64,000 bases of DNA from contig NZ_JACHVB010000012.1 in assembly GCF_014230085.1 (NCBI RefSeq), positions 248,001 to 312,000 on the forward strand, in the 5' to 3' direction. The position numbers and the translations under genes were made by a program. The notes under the pieces were generated by a model. The model worked only from the letters and a program-made list of their open reading frames with translations. It was not told the origin of the DNA and did no database searches. How positions within the stretch are numbered: position 1 is the first letter of the stretch; the number at the start of each line of letters is the position of its first letter. This document shows positions 819 through 46,939 of this stretch, piece by piece. The DNA is from Ruficoccus amylovorans. GTDB taxonomy: Bacteria; Verrucomicrobiota; Verrucomicrobiia; Opitutales; Cerasicoccaceae.

Positions 819-856
819 AAGGTTTGAGCGTTTGAATATTTGAGCGTTTGAGAATT
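819..856. repeat. TTTGAG-word arm upstream of a prophage ATG
   Basis: Four tandem degenerate words of the type GTTTGAGC / GTTTGAAT fill the gap between the small gene at 573-818 and the LamG gene. They end 3-4 nt from the ATG of the former. On the mRNA strand this reads as a G-poor series of YTCAAAC words. It matches the arms at 40117, 41653, 42748 and 46814. Only a single arm is present, with no inverted partner. Confidence 0.6.
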
Positions 857-13615: not shown

Positions 13616-13790
13616 ATTTACCATTTGTCATTTATCATTTGCCATATGCCATTGGGGGACAGTGCTCAATGTCCACGGATATGGCCACGTCGTCACGGGG
13701 CCCGGCGTCCTGAAAAGCCGAGGCAAAAGGAGTGCCGTTCATCATTGGCCAATCCCCATTGATAAATGACCAATGGCAAATGCCACCCTC
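13616..13790. repeat. Inverted-arm element of CATTTGTC/CATTTATC words between convergent genes
   Basis: The gap between corA and the SUMF1 gene (convergent) has a left arm at about 13618-13655 (words CATTTGTC, CATTTATC, CATTTGCC, CATATGCC) and an inverted right arm at about 13742-13786 (GATAAATGAC, CAATGGCAAATG). The roughly 90-bp spacer is GC-rich. It is a variant of the AAATGGCT family seen elsewhere in the window but with the arms turned inside out. It could also act as a bidirectional terminator-like hairpin, but there is no T-run. Confidence 0.65.
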
Positions 13791-22904: not shown

Positions 22905-23028
22905 TGCTAAATGGTTAAATGGCTAAAGGGCTGAATGGTTGTGAGTGCTAAATGGCTGATTGTTGACGATGGCGCTTGTTTTTTCGGTAACTAATCGAGC
23001 AGCCCTTTAGCATTTAACCATTTCTATT
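22905..23028. repeat. AAATGGCT-word inverted-arm element between gatA and gatB
   Basis: The left arm begins directly next to the gatB ATG (GATGCTAAATGGTTAAATGG, then GCTAAAGGGCTGAATGG and GCTAAATGGCTGATTGTTG). The inverted right arm (CCCTTTAGCATTTAACCATT) abuts the gatA stop. The spacer has TTTTTTCGGTAACTAATCG. On the mRNA the gatB leader therefore consists of CCATTTAGC-type words and contains no Shine-Dalgarno sequence. Confidence 0.75.
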
Positions 23029-40116: not shown

Positions 40117-40239
40117 TTCTAGAAGTTTGAGAATTTGAGAGTTTAAAAGTTTGAGAGTTGGTGGGCGGTCGTCGTCAGGAGTTCGGAAGTTTAACTTTCA
40201 AACTCTCAAACCCGAGACTCTCAAACTGCGCCGGAGGCC
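40117..40239. repeat. TTTGAGAG-word inverted-arm element between sufB and sufD
   Basis: The left arm (about 40122-40162) has GAAGTTTGAGAATTTGAGAG, TTTAAAAG and TTTGAGAGTTGG words; the inverted right arm (about 40188-40226) has TTTAACTTTCAAACTCTC then AAACCCGAGACTCTCAAAC. The spacer is about 25 bp and GC-rich. The left arm lies 5 bp from the sufD ATG. It is homologous to the element at 46814-46939, including the ATTAACTTTCAAACTCTC/TTTAACTTTCAAACTCTC core. Confidence 0.8.
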
Positions 40240-41652: not shown

Positions 41653-41728
41653 GATAAGTTTAAAAAATTGAGGGTTTGAAGGTTTGAGTGTTCCGGACGG
41701 GCTGTGGCGTGTATCCGTTTTTCAATAC
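41653..41728. repeat. TTTGAG-word arm in the sufB leader plus 18-bp palindrome-like unit
   Basis: Words GATAAGTTTAAAAAATTGAG, GGTTTGAAGGTTTGAGTG lie 1-40 bp from the sufB ATG. At 41711-41728 stands GTATCCGTTTTTCAATAC, the inverted counterpart of the 18-bp units at 269-286 and 7737-7754. Confidence 0.6.
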
Positions 41729-41742
41729 AGCGTGGCGCGGGC

Positions 41743-42747
41743 TCAGTTGCGGTCGAGGACGATGCGGTAGCGGGCCTTGCCGCTGCGCAGGTGGTCGAAG
41801 GCGTCGTTGATCTTCTCCATCGGGAAGTGTTCGGTTACGGGTGCGATGTTGTGGCGGGCGCAGAACTCCAGCATGTCCGCCGCGGTGGCGGGGCTGCCGG
41901 TGGGGGAGGCCATGATGCGCTTCGCGCCCATGATCATGGGCATGACCTCGAACTCGACCGGCGGCACCGCGCCGACGAAGTACAGCGTGCCCGCCGGGCG
42001 CAGCGTGTTGATGTAGGCGTTCCAGTCGAGGTTGACGTTGACGGTGACGAGCACCATGTCGAGCGAGCCCCGGACTTTTTCCAGCGCCTTGGGGTCGCGG
42101 GAATTGACAAAGTGGTGCGCGCCCATCGAGCGGGCTTCCTCTTCCTTGGCCGGACTGCCGGAGAAGGCCGTCACCTCGCAGCCCCAGGCGCGGGCGAACT
42201 GGAGGGCCAGGTGCCCGAGTCCGCCGATACCGACCACGCCGACCCGCTGGGTGGGGCGGATGTCCGCCTCGATGAACGGGTTAAAGACTGTGAGTCCGCC
42301 GCAGAACATCGGGCCGACCTTGGAAGCGTCGAGCGCCGCCGGGATCGGGATGGCCCATTCGCTTTTGCAGACAACGTGCGAGGCAAAGCCGCCGTGCCGC
42401 CCGACGATGGTCGCCTCGACGGTGGAGCAGCGGTTGTGGTGGCCGCTCATGCACTCGCGGCAGTGCATGCACGAGCCGGAGGACCAGCCCACGCCGACCT
42501 TTTGGCCGAGTTGGAGGTGGCGCACGTCGTCGCCCTTCCACAGCACGGTGCCGACGATCTCATGCCCGCCGACGAAGGGGTAGGTCGTGATGCCCCAGTC
42601 GTTGTCGAGCATGGAGAGATCGCTGTGGCAGATGCCACAGTGTTCGACCGCGACCAGCACCTCGTGCGGCCCGAGATCGGCGGCCTTGTATTCAAAAGGC
42701 TTGAAATCGGCCTTCGGTTCGGCCGCGGCGTAGGCTTGGATGTTCAT
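41743..42747 (-). CDS. Zinc-dependent NAD(P) alcohol dehydrogenase
   Basis: 334 residues of the cinnamyl-alcohol/YahK-like MDR subfamily, which reduces aldehydes. Catalytic zinc ligands Cys37 (VEHCGICHSD), His62 (GGHEIVGTV) and the later Cys are present. The structural zinc site (Cys93, Cys96, Cys99, Cys107 in GSCMHCRECMSGHHNRC) is intact. The Rossmann motif is VGIGGLGHLALQFA. It lies between the four-helix-bundle gene and sufB, in the operon direction, so it is probably co-transcribed with suf genes without an obvious role in Fe-S assembly. Confidence 0.9.
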   Translation of the reverse strand: MNIQAYAAAEPKADFKPFEYKAADLGPHEVLVAVEHCGICHSDLSMLDNDWGITTYPFVGGHEIVGTVLWKGDDVRHLQLGQKVGVGWSSGSCMHCRECMSGHHNRCSTVEATIVGRHGGFASHVVCKSEWAIPIPAALDASKVGPMFCGGLTVFNPFIEADIRPTQRVGVVGIGGLGHLALQFARAWGCEVTAFSGSPAKEEEARSMGAHHFVNSRDPKALEKVRGSLDMVLVTVNVNLDWNAYINTLRPAGTLYFVGAVPPVEFEVMPMIMGAKRIMASPTGSPATAADMLEFCARHNIAPVTEHFPMEKINDAFDHLRSGKARYRIVLDRN

Positions 42748-42790
42748 GCGGAAGTTTGAATGTTTGAGAGTTTGAGGGTTTGAAAGTTGG
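42748..42790. repeat. TTTGAGAG-word left arm between the IVP gene and the dehydrogenase
   Basis: GGAAGTTTGAATGTTTGAGA, GTTTGAGGGTTTGAAAGTTG. It begins 3 bp from the dehydrogenase ATG and ends at the stop codon of the four-helix-bundle gene. It is inverted relative to the arm at 43232-43270, so the gene lies exactly between the two. Confidence 0.78.
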
Positions 42791-43228
42791 TTAGGCGGAG
42801 GGGAGGGTGAAGGCGGTTTCTGGTTCGCGCAGTTCTGTGGGTTTGAATTTCATGCCCTTGATATCCGATTTCGACAGGTAGCCGATGAAACCGCTGAGCA
42901 GCGCCTCGGCTTCGGTGGCGACTGCATAGACGCTATCGAACTGAACCTGGTTAATGTAATCGGCATCGAGCATGACGTAGAGTTGGCTTTTGACTTCGGC
43001 CAGGGAGCCGCGAGCGACGTAGAGGAACTGCAAAAACTCGCGGTTGCCGCTGCGCCCGAAACCCTCGGCGATGTTGGACATGGCCGAGATGCTGCTTCTG
43101 CGGATTTGGTCGCAGAGCGCGAAGTCTCTGCTGACAGGCTCCGCAGACGTAAGAGCATAGACCAGACGGGAAAGCTCGCGCGCTTTCTGCCAGGCTTGAA
43201 TCTCCTCGAATGTTCGGATGCTTGCCAT
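42791..43228 (-). CDS. Four-helix-bundle protein (23S rRNA intervening-sequence type)
   Basis: 145 residues from the ATG at 43226-43228. Family phrases are IQAWQKARELSRLVYALTS, DQIRRSSISAMSNIAEGFGR, REFLQFLYVARGSLAEVKSQ and LSGFIGYLSKS. This family (TIGR02436) was first known from ORFs inside 23S rRNA intervening sequences of Leptospira and Coxiella; the fold is a helical bundle that makes pentamers in known members, function unclear. Here it stands in the suf operon, framed by inverted TTTGAGAG-word arms at 42748-42790 and 43232-43270. A C-terminal tail (KFKPTELREPETAFTLPSA) is extra. Confidence 0.9.
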   Translation of the reverse strand: MASIRTFEEIQAWQKARELSRLVYALTSAEPVSRDFALCDQIRRSSISAMSNIAEGFGRSGNREFLQFLYVARGSLAEVKSQLYVMLDADYINQVQFDSVYAVATEAEALLSGFIGYLSKSDIKGMKFKPTELREPETAFTLPSA

Positions 43229-43283
43229 CTGCTGAACTCTCAAACTCTCAAACCAAAAACTCTCAAACGTCCCGCGCGTCGGC
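43229..43283. repeat. CTCTCAAAC-word right arm between sufC and the IVP gene
   Basis: GAACTCTCAAACTCTCAAAC then CAAAAACTCTCAAACG, followed by GC-rich sequence up to the sufC stop at 43284. It is the reverse-complement partner of the arm at 42748-42790 across the 438-bp IVP gene. Confidence 0.78.
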
Positions 43284-46813: not shown

Positions 46814-46939
46814 AAGAAGTTTGAAAGTTTGACGGTTTGAAAGTTTGAGAGTTGGGAGGAGGGGCGTTTGAGCGTGCGAAAGATTAACTTTCAAACTCTC
46901 AAACCCTGAACTCTCAAACACGGGATTCAGGCCTGTGGC
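46814..46939. repeat. TTTGAGAG-word inverted-arm element between sucB and lpd
   Basis: The left arm (about 46816-46854) reads AAGAAGTTTGAAAGTTTGAC, GGTTTGAAAGTTTGAGAG. The right arm (about 46884-46922) reads ATTAACTTTCAAACTCTC then AAACCCTGAACTCTCAAAC. The spacer is about 30 bp. The left arm is 3 bp from the lpd ATG, the right arm about 20 bp from the sucB stop. It is homologous to the sufB-sufD element. Confidence 0.82.

Follow-up and report, generated by a model that had tools for sequence, protein, structure and literature searches.

Organization of the sufC-ahr element

The analyzed window is a 64,000-nt stretch (C12:248001-312000) of the 4.5-Mb draft genome G000. Profile searches identified sufC, ahr, sufB, sufD, sufT and a Fur-family gene as neighbors of an S23p gene, which encodes a protein of the four-helix-bundle type and is enclosed by two inverted arrays of the 8-nt word GTTTGARRG (Table 1). 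Along the minus strand, the sufC stop is followed by the left arm, 6 nt, the ATG at 43228, the ORF with its TAA ending at 42791, 2 nt, the right arm, and the ahr ATG at 42747; the array between sufC and the S23p ATG reads GTTTGAGAG-TTTTTG-GTTTGAGAGTTTGAGAG. The ORF matches PF05635 with an E-value of 7.7e-33 and TIGR02436 with an E-value of 4e-31, PF05635 being its only match in Pfam, and dN/dS for the pair formed with its G009 orthologue is 0.09. According to the sequence and the predicted fold (RNA fold z -5.2), the complementary ends flanking the ORF are able to close one stem. Profile matches and word-array coordinates thus confirm the S23p-type ORF between inverted word arms inside the suf operon, as described by the sequence-only reading of this DNA, with the small correction that the word tracts exclude positions 42748-42753 and 43269-43283.

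Table 1. Location of the S23p gene and of GTTTGARRG-type arms in the window.
Feature	Position	Strand	Remarks
PF05635/TIGR02436 (S23p, four-helix-bundle) ORF	42791..43228	-	145 aa from ATG at 43228
Left arm, 5' of ORF	43235..43268	-	GTTTGAGAG TTTTTG GTTTGAGAGTTTGAGAGTT
Right arm, 3' of ORF, inverted	42754..42788	+	GTTTGAATGTTTGAGAGTTTGAGGGTTTGAAAGTT on + strand
Arm of ORF-less element, sufB-sufD gap	40125..40159	+	RNA fold z -3.3
Opposite arm of sufB-sufD ORF-less element	40193..40226	-	
Arm of ORF-less element between sucB-like and lpd-like genes	46819..46853	+	RNA fold z -5.3
Opposite arm of sucB-lpd ORF-less element	46886..46919	-	
Single arm directly upstream of sufB start	41666..41692	+	partner not found; fold not unusual (z 0.17)
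Single arm elsewhere in the window, same word as sufC-ahr element	822..851	+	

Word arrays in the window and in the genome

The sequence GTTTGARRGTTTGA, with at most two mismatches, has 23 matches in the window, compared with a mean of 1.09 and a largest count of 4 in 100 dinucleotide shuffles. Two ORF-less elements, 40117-40239 and 46814-46939, fill the sufB-sufD and sucB-lpd gaps, respectively (gene names sucB and lpd were assigned by eye). Their arms are as in the ORF element, their spacers are unrelated, and the RNA of both is predicted to fold closed via the arms. Both elements had been noticed from the letters and are real; their interpretation as miniature derivatives is not supported, as the spacers look mutually unrelated, here and in a relative. 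An origin as deletion copies of the ORF element was rejected for the same unrelatedness of the spacers, in which only a weak C-rich likeness beside the inner end of the right arm was seen by eye. An Rfam scan of the 36-52 kb part of the window yielded one sub-threshold miRNA match and no rRNA.

A larger sample of G000 (524 kb, consisting of 344 kb of C12 chosen without regard to matches and 180 kb chosen for matches) contains 25 GTTTGARRG clusters, including one at C12:106007 that appears to be a chance occurrence. In each of the 14 two-strand clusters the G-rich strand comes first, facing the spacer, and the spacers are mutually dissimilar by eye; the other 11 of the 25 have the word on one strand only. 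A word-free scan of 344 kb of G000 found 21 tandem arrays of 7-8-nt units, 18 of them with an inverted partner, although some of these 18 are the two arms of one pair and several come from a MITE-like family; no arrays were found in 164 kb of mononucleotide-shuffled sequence. The same scan found eight arrays in 400 kb of G003 (three with a partner), four in 40 kb of G009 (three with a partner), and none in 40 kb each of G007 and G008, where it missed degenerate G008 arrays visible by eye.

Two other kinds of repeats were observed. First, an inverted array pair of a different word (ATTTGCCATTTATC type) is present at 13616-13653 of the window with the partner near 13746, and no PF05635-family ORF was found near it. 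Second, C12 of G000 contains a palindromic MITE-like family of about 145 bp, with ends TTTAGAGCGTTT...AAACGCTCTAAA (by eye) and arrays of AATGGTTA-type words in the middle. It occurs at about 20654 and 34749 of the window and at other C12 places, and a similar word array is found at 22905. The core of this family has 19 matches in 344 kb, at least three pairs of which are the two strands of one copy, and one copy is situated inside the spacer of a GTTTGA array pair (C12:206685-206988).

One further S23p gene and no more was found in this genome (G000:C64:14518-14700, L002); its reading frame is broken, and it has inverted flanks of the TCATTTTTCATT type. As the arm score of these flanks (12) is under the threshold of 15 introduced below, the genome gives a weak answer to whether its other S23p ORFs are armed, a point raised by the sequence-only reading.

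Distribution of armed S23p genes

PF05635 was searched in 10 genomes of the same family (9 positive) and in 240 genomes of the phylum (181 positive). To these were added named loci from other bacteria, found by the pattern [VIS]S[IA]x[SAH]NIAEG, the best 80 of 575 confirmed being used; owing to this pattern, one part of the PF05635 family is over-represented among them. All 41 listed family places and 90 phylum places were taken, and, as the latter came from a capped list ranked by score, strong matches are over-represented in the phylum set. The resulting 211 loci, from many phyla, contain 216 PF05635 ORF matches; three with incomplete flanks were dropped, leaving 213, with five loci that gave two matches counted twice.

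The arm score was obtained by aligning the 150 nt that precede the start codon with the 150 nt that follow the stop codon, the latter reverse-complemented. Its mean is 20.5 for an ORF's own pair of flanks and 9.3 for displaced windows of the same spacing. A score of at least 15 was reached by 169 of the 213 ORF matches (30/42 in the family, 67/90 in the phylum and 72/81 in the named set) and by 8 of 812 displaced windows, and a score of at least 20 by 114 of 213 and 0 of 812, respectively. The remaining 44 matches score below 15, and 28 of those below 13. According to record titles, Acidobacteria, Bacteroidetes, Chloroflexi, Planctomycetota, Patescibacteria and Clostridia are among the sources of armed named loci.

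An armless PF05635 subfamily with the starts MSNFFPHE or MTSYFPHE was observed in six family genomes (L046, L047, L098-L101). It provides a natural contrast to the armed ORFs, is under purifying selection (dN/dS 0.03 and 0.06 in two pairs) and is perhaps a domesticated member.

A tblastn search for PF05635-type proteins matched 43 of 72,556 plasmid records, mostly cyanobacterial. Inverted arms scoring 17-34 were found in 18 of the 22 loci examined out of these 43, and 2 of 80 displaced plasmid windows reached 15. One plasmid ORF (L354) has no matching arms, and another (L357) is a truncated copy; at L304 and L361 the flanking arrays run in the same direction instead of being inverted. Elements L304, L308 and L309 lie within CRISPR operons on cyanobacterial plasmids, between cas6 and cas4 or between cas10 and a cmr3-family gene, which suggests that S23p elements are passengers in these cas operons. 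Such elements may explain the "23S rRNA IVP" named in a figure legend on CRISPR-linked proteins (PMC10910872). A viral origin was rejected, with 0 of 50,697 phage records matching; the viral_contigs set contained 17 PF05635 loci.

Structure and evolution of the arms

Among the 169 armed ORFs, the paired arm has a median length of 34 nt or 4.7 units, for which the score cut of 15 sets a floor. The better-fitting unit is 7 nt in 128 of them and 8 nt in 41; the sufC-ahr element has 8-nt units. G exceeds C in the left arm of 147 of the 169 (7 ties), and self-identity at the best period is 0.72 in arms and 0.42 in upstream control segments. The ORFs between the arms are under purifying selection: of 16 orthologue pairs compared, three were saturated, two belong to the armless subfamily, and the 11 armed ones have dN/dS of 0.02-0.16.

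By crude gene calls, and with loci having less than 600 nt on either side dropped, 101 of 149 elements with an arm score of at least 17 are oriented along both neighbors and 10 against both, and the neighbors are divergent for 29 and convergent for 9; the cassette is therefore usually transcribed together with its hosts. Unarmed ORFs are oriented along both neighbors in 10 of 20 cases. This codirectional bias, the purifying selection on the ORF and the predicted folds (z -3.3 to -5.3) would suit an RNA-processing cassette without mobility, in which the arms are RNase III hairpins that uncouple operon genes and free a small mRNA, and S23p is a host gene with ordinary gain and loss; RNase III cutting has been published for the Coxiella element (PMC4990558). 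However, mismatches in the arms carry no signature of sense-strand G.U pairing: 237 are compatible with it and 278 are of the opposite kind, and thus pairing of the sense RNA is not visibly selected, despite the strong predicted folds. The single arm upstream of sufB, which forms no hairpin, also argues against this explanation.

Homologous genes on both sides served to recognize elements that occupy one site in several species. In 74 same-site pairs with ORF identity of 0.45-0.85, which are not independent and from which pairs with an arm score below 13 or from one locus were dropped, the similarity of left and right arm within an element exceeds that between the left arm of one element and the right arm of its counterpart in 60 cases and falls below it in 11, with three ties. 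At one Flavobacterium/Sphingobacterium site, words range from AGGTTCAA to AGTAGCTG among ORFs that are 63-94% identical. Hence both arms change their word in concert, and the ORF stays under purifying selection. Quasi-palindrome correction would also change both arms together, and, as unit number and word drift along lineages, a purely mutational origin may be considered, with tandem arrays growing by slippage, inverted pairs perfected by hairpin template switching, and the ORF a mere passenger. We hold this to be very improbable, as it leaves unexplained why 169 of 213 ORFs are armed when displaced windows rarely are, why words follow the ORF across phyla, and why whole cassettes are present or absent.

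The association of word and ORF is measurable: likeness of words tracks likeness of ORFs among 149 elements, a set that leaves out proteins with inner stops or of at least 170 aa (Mantel rho 0.137, null sd 0.023). Across phyla, with phylum labels assigned by hand from record titles, rho is 0.20 for 1637 pairs of 63 named elements; none of 1000 free permutations and 3 of the 1000 made within phyla reached this value.

The suf region and word arrays in the family

Genomes G009 and G000 share the sufC-ORF element and the sufB-sufD mini-element. Both are absent from G007, where the sufC-ahr site is a 27-nt gap without arms. In G008 (same genus), ORF-less inverted arrays of a different word are present at sufC-ahr and at sufD-sufT, the latter gap measuring 114 nt there and 7-16 nt between matched ends in the others. 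The condition that the sequence-only reading had named as refuting, older arms shared by relatives at this place without the ORF, thus has a mixed outcome: the place has no arms in G007, and in G008 it has arms of another word and no ORF. The arrays of G008 (G008:C33, L285-L286) are composed of the word AAATTTRTAAATYCGTAGATT, the one PF05635 ORF of that genome having another word; the AAATTTRTAAATYCGTAGATT family also occurs at G000:C12:349725 and G009:C10:39474.

In a tree of all 41 family loci and 31 others chosen by hand, the sufC-site ORFs of G000, G009, G002 and G003 group into a single clade that is divided by genus (support 100/98). Their words are GTTTGAGAG in G000 and G009, GTTCGTAA in G002 and GTTAGTAAAG in G003. 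As this clade spans two genera, either the ORF at this site is old and has been lost, or insertion here happened repeatedly; a single clade at the site would also be expected of the RNA-processing cassette described above.

Seven GGCAGAAGG elements, six in G003 and one in G004, picked because they span about 140 bp, closely resemble each other in their arms and have about 80 nt of unrelated spacer. A terminator function was rejected, because several G003 elements are T-rich before and A-rich after the hairpin (by eye), opposite to the order in a terminator.

Genomes that bear the ORF also contain, with exceptions, scattered ORF-less inverted arrays whose word is the same or related. First, whole-genome counts of GTTTGARRG are 97 in G009, 84 in G000, 16 in G003, 11 in G002, 2 in G007 and 0 in the others, and the sufC-type ORF is present in exactly G000, G009, G002 and G003; the matches of G002 and G003 have a word related, though not identical, to that of their own ORF arms. 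Second, TTATGAA is counted 44 times in G003, 27 in G004, 9 in G002 and not at all in the others, and the TTATGAA ORF clade (support 86/84) is found in exactly these three genomes, its G002 member L056 having another word. Third, GTKCTTRG counts are 55 in G009, 27 in G005, 20 in G002, 4 in G003, 3 in G004 and 2 in G001, with ORFs in G002 and G009 only. Fourth, GTGCGGA counts are 16 in G002 and 9 each in G003 and G004, with ORFs in G002, G004 and G006 (no matches in G006). Finally, GGCAGAWGG counts are 32 in G003, 10 in G004, 8 in G006, 5 in G002 and 1 in G005, with ORFs in G003 and G004. Taken over genome/word cells, at least five array matches are present in 13 of 14 ORF-bearing and 4 of 36 ORF-free cells, the cut having been set after the data were seen, phylogeny being uncorrected, and the arms of the ORF elements being included in the counts. 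Reversed patterns gave 0 for TTATGAA, GTGCGGA and GGCAGAWGG and up to 6 per genome for GTKCTTRG; for GTTTGARRG this control is uninformative, since the repeat reads nearly the same backwards.

The exceptions are arrays without a cognate ORF, namely GTKCTTRG in G005 (27), GTGCGGA in G003 (9), GGCAGAWGG in G006 (8) and G002 (5), and the own word of G008. They would be expected if an unrelated transposase or recombination moved the elements, with S23p only regulating or binding and the arms serving as targets of another system. The MITE-like family of about 145 bp, which has word arrays in its middle, and the lack, to our knowledge, of a catalytic motif in PF05635 point in the same direction. However, the coupling of word and ORF and their co-occurrence suggest a role for the ORF, and we give this explanation only a small chance.

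Presence, absence and dispersal of the cassette

Whole cassettes are present or absent at otherwise near-identical sites. In Nostoc sp. ATCC 53789, homologous stretches of the plasmids pNsp_c (L302) and pNsp_a (L356) are 91% identical over 687 aligned columns, and on each of them an S23p element with a word of its own occupies an intergenic site at which the other plasmid has no insert. The two S23p ORFs are 40% identical. The pNsp_a insert starts inside the upstream gene's stop codon, which reads TAA there and TAG in pNsp_c and is thus a stop in both plasmids. On pNsp_c, the stretch that is missing from the empty site also includes about 35-40 nt past the right arm. No clear target-site duplication was seen at these inserts: TTCTA is found on both sides of one of them, but the arm itself ends in TTC. 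The reciprocal empty sites support insertion of the cassette as a unit.

Dispersal is also seen among closely related elements. The word TCAGGAGTCAGAAG is kept by L310, L355 and L356 (ORFs 79-83% identical) and the word GCAGGGG by L358, L360 and L362 (ORFs 77-85% identical) at unrelated sites, the flanks within each group matching at background level only. At one gap (atpA-atpG by eye), the ORFs of different taxa belong to three unrelated types. In the tree, some copies at a shared site appear to have been inherited vertically. The same ORF and word at unrelated sites, the reciprocal empty sites and the unrelated ORFs at one site argue against an RNA-processing cassette without mobility, an explanation that we consider unlikely.

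Relation to known repeats and proteins

The 23S rRNA intervening sequence (IVS) of Coxiella burnetii has three GACAGAT repeats before the S23p ATG and a 28-bp terminal stem, and is cut by RNase III (PMC4990558). The sufC-ahr element resembles it in the S23p-family ORF, the stem-closing complementary ends and the tandem words, heptamers in Coxiella, right before the ORF start (PMC4990558). Unlike a 23S IVS, it lies between protein genes, outside any 23S or 16S rRNA gene; it also differs in its 8-nt word and in the purifying selection on its ORF, as opposed to the reductive evolution of the Coxiella ORF, the product of which is probably not made in vivo (PMC4990558). On these likenesses, the Coxiella IVS seems to belong to the same element family as the suf element, and we regard both as the same kind of element in different settings.

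REPINs and RAYTs share inverted doublets, intervening spacers, extragenic dispersal and one ORF type per repeat type (PMC3116915), and dispersed inverted doublets with variable spacers were found here. In contrast to the RAYT/REPIN system, the ORF is of PF05635 and not a Y1/HUH tyrosine transposase, and the repeat is a tandem word array and not a REP palindrome (PMC3116915).

Heptamer arrays have been described on their own. The GGGAATC and GGGGA(C/T)T arrays of Xanthomonas and Nostoc are mostly non-coding, prefer four units, occur as convergent inverted pairs (70 in one genome, 75 in another), and have the G-rich strand near stops and the antisense near starts (PMC4692102); the non-coding location, the preference for four units and the inverted pairs are features in common with the arrays considered here. 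The tandem TAACTGA heptamers of Beggiatoaceae, Cyanobacteria and Bacteroidetes are, in one genome, located mostly just upstream of starts, and their horizontal spread was suggested, with no evident mechanism (PMC4679880); unlike the inverted arms, they are described as direct repeats. Neither "s23" nor "four helix" occurs in the text of PMC4692102 or of PMC4679880. In the P6b stem of the Nostoc trnL intron, 7-nt motifs also build a stem and the motif class shifts between lineages, but these repeats are inside a group I intron, and no ORF is mentioned in the passages on them (PMC4476775). In print, we thus found arrays alone (PMC4692102, PMC4679880), the P6b stem (PMC4476775) and the heptamers of one IVS (PMC4990558). 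Literature linking S23p ORFs to dispersed word arrays was not found, a weak negative, since subscription papers and preprints were outside the search.

No reverse transcriptase, a feature of DGRs, was found among the seven neighborhood proteins profile-searched at the suf locus. The DGR accessory protein Avd is a pentamer. It is homologous to PF05635 (PMC10053308), and the S23p protein of Xanthomonas is likewise a homopentameric toroid, S23p proteins being without assigned function (PMC4990558). Each of the entries 2gsc and 2rld, which are solved structures of relatives, contains five chains.

A proposed mobile S23p cassette

The architecture, the wide occurrence, the differing words, the concerted turnover of the arms and the purifying selection on the ORF are direct observations, as are the presence or absence of whole cassettes and the ORF-less arrays in ORF-bearing genomes. 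With a probability of roughly 0.58, we interpret the suf element as a non-rRNA member of a pan-bacterial family of cassettes. It consists of a single S23p gene that is flanked by inverted arrays, each with four to five copies of a private 7-8-nt word, and it is inserted between genes and usually read with them. The sequence-only reading had proposed a mobile or processed element of inverted repeats and an ORF, not tied to rRNA; of this, the IVS-like form outside rRNA with ORF-less relatives that have the same arms and, from the reciprocal Nostoc sites, the insertion as a unit are supported. The comparison with an IVS is correct as to form, and what was noticed then is part of something larger, a widespread cassette with private inverted word arrays. 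Beyond architecture, unit insertion and selection on the ORF, the steps of the mechanism, namely word binding by S23p, S23p-driven movement and RNase III cutting, are inferences.

The protein TRAP wraps repeats, with one repeat unit per subunit. In a similar manner, a homopentameric S23p ring could bind the word array of its own cassette; about one word for each subunit is suggested because the arms hold four to five words and the solved relatives have five chains. Word binding would let S23p maintain and spread the cassette and, in trans, ORF-less arrays, as is thought for RAYTs and REPINs. We know of no catalytic function of PF05635, and the enzyme moving the DNA may be a host protein. In RNA, the arms would close a stem that RNase III could cut, and we propose that the host genes tolerate the insert for this reason. 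More tentatively, and with rather less confidence than in the cassette family itself, we suggest that a small ring protein without a transposase reads a private 7-8-nt word, that the orphan heptamer arrays of cyanobacteria, Xanthomonas and Beggiatoaceae are non-autonomous offspring of such cassettes, and that the word drifts freely as both arms and the protein stay matched.

This proposal offers one story, across many phyla, for S23p proteins, which lack an assigned function (PMC4990558), and for the bacterial heptamer arrays of the papers cited above, to which no origin has been assigned. If it is true, at least some 23S rRNA IVSs would be recast as members of a much larger mobile family. If each S23p recognizes its own word, the word-protein pairs would form a natural series in which a binding code and the joint change of protein and target could be followed. 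Finally, as the arms adjoin stop and start codons in operons such as suf and cas, many operon transcripts may be cleaved or bound at sites that are not annotated.
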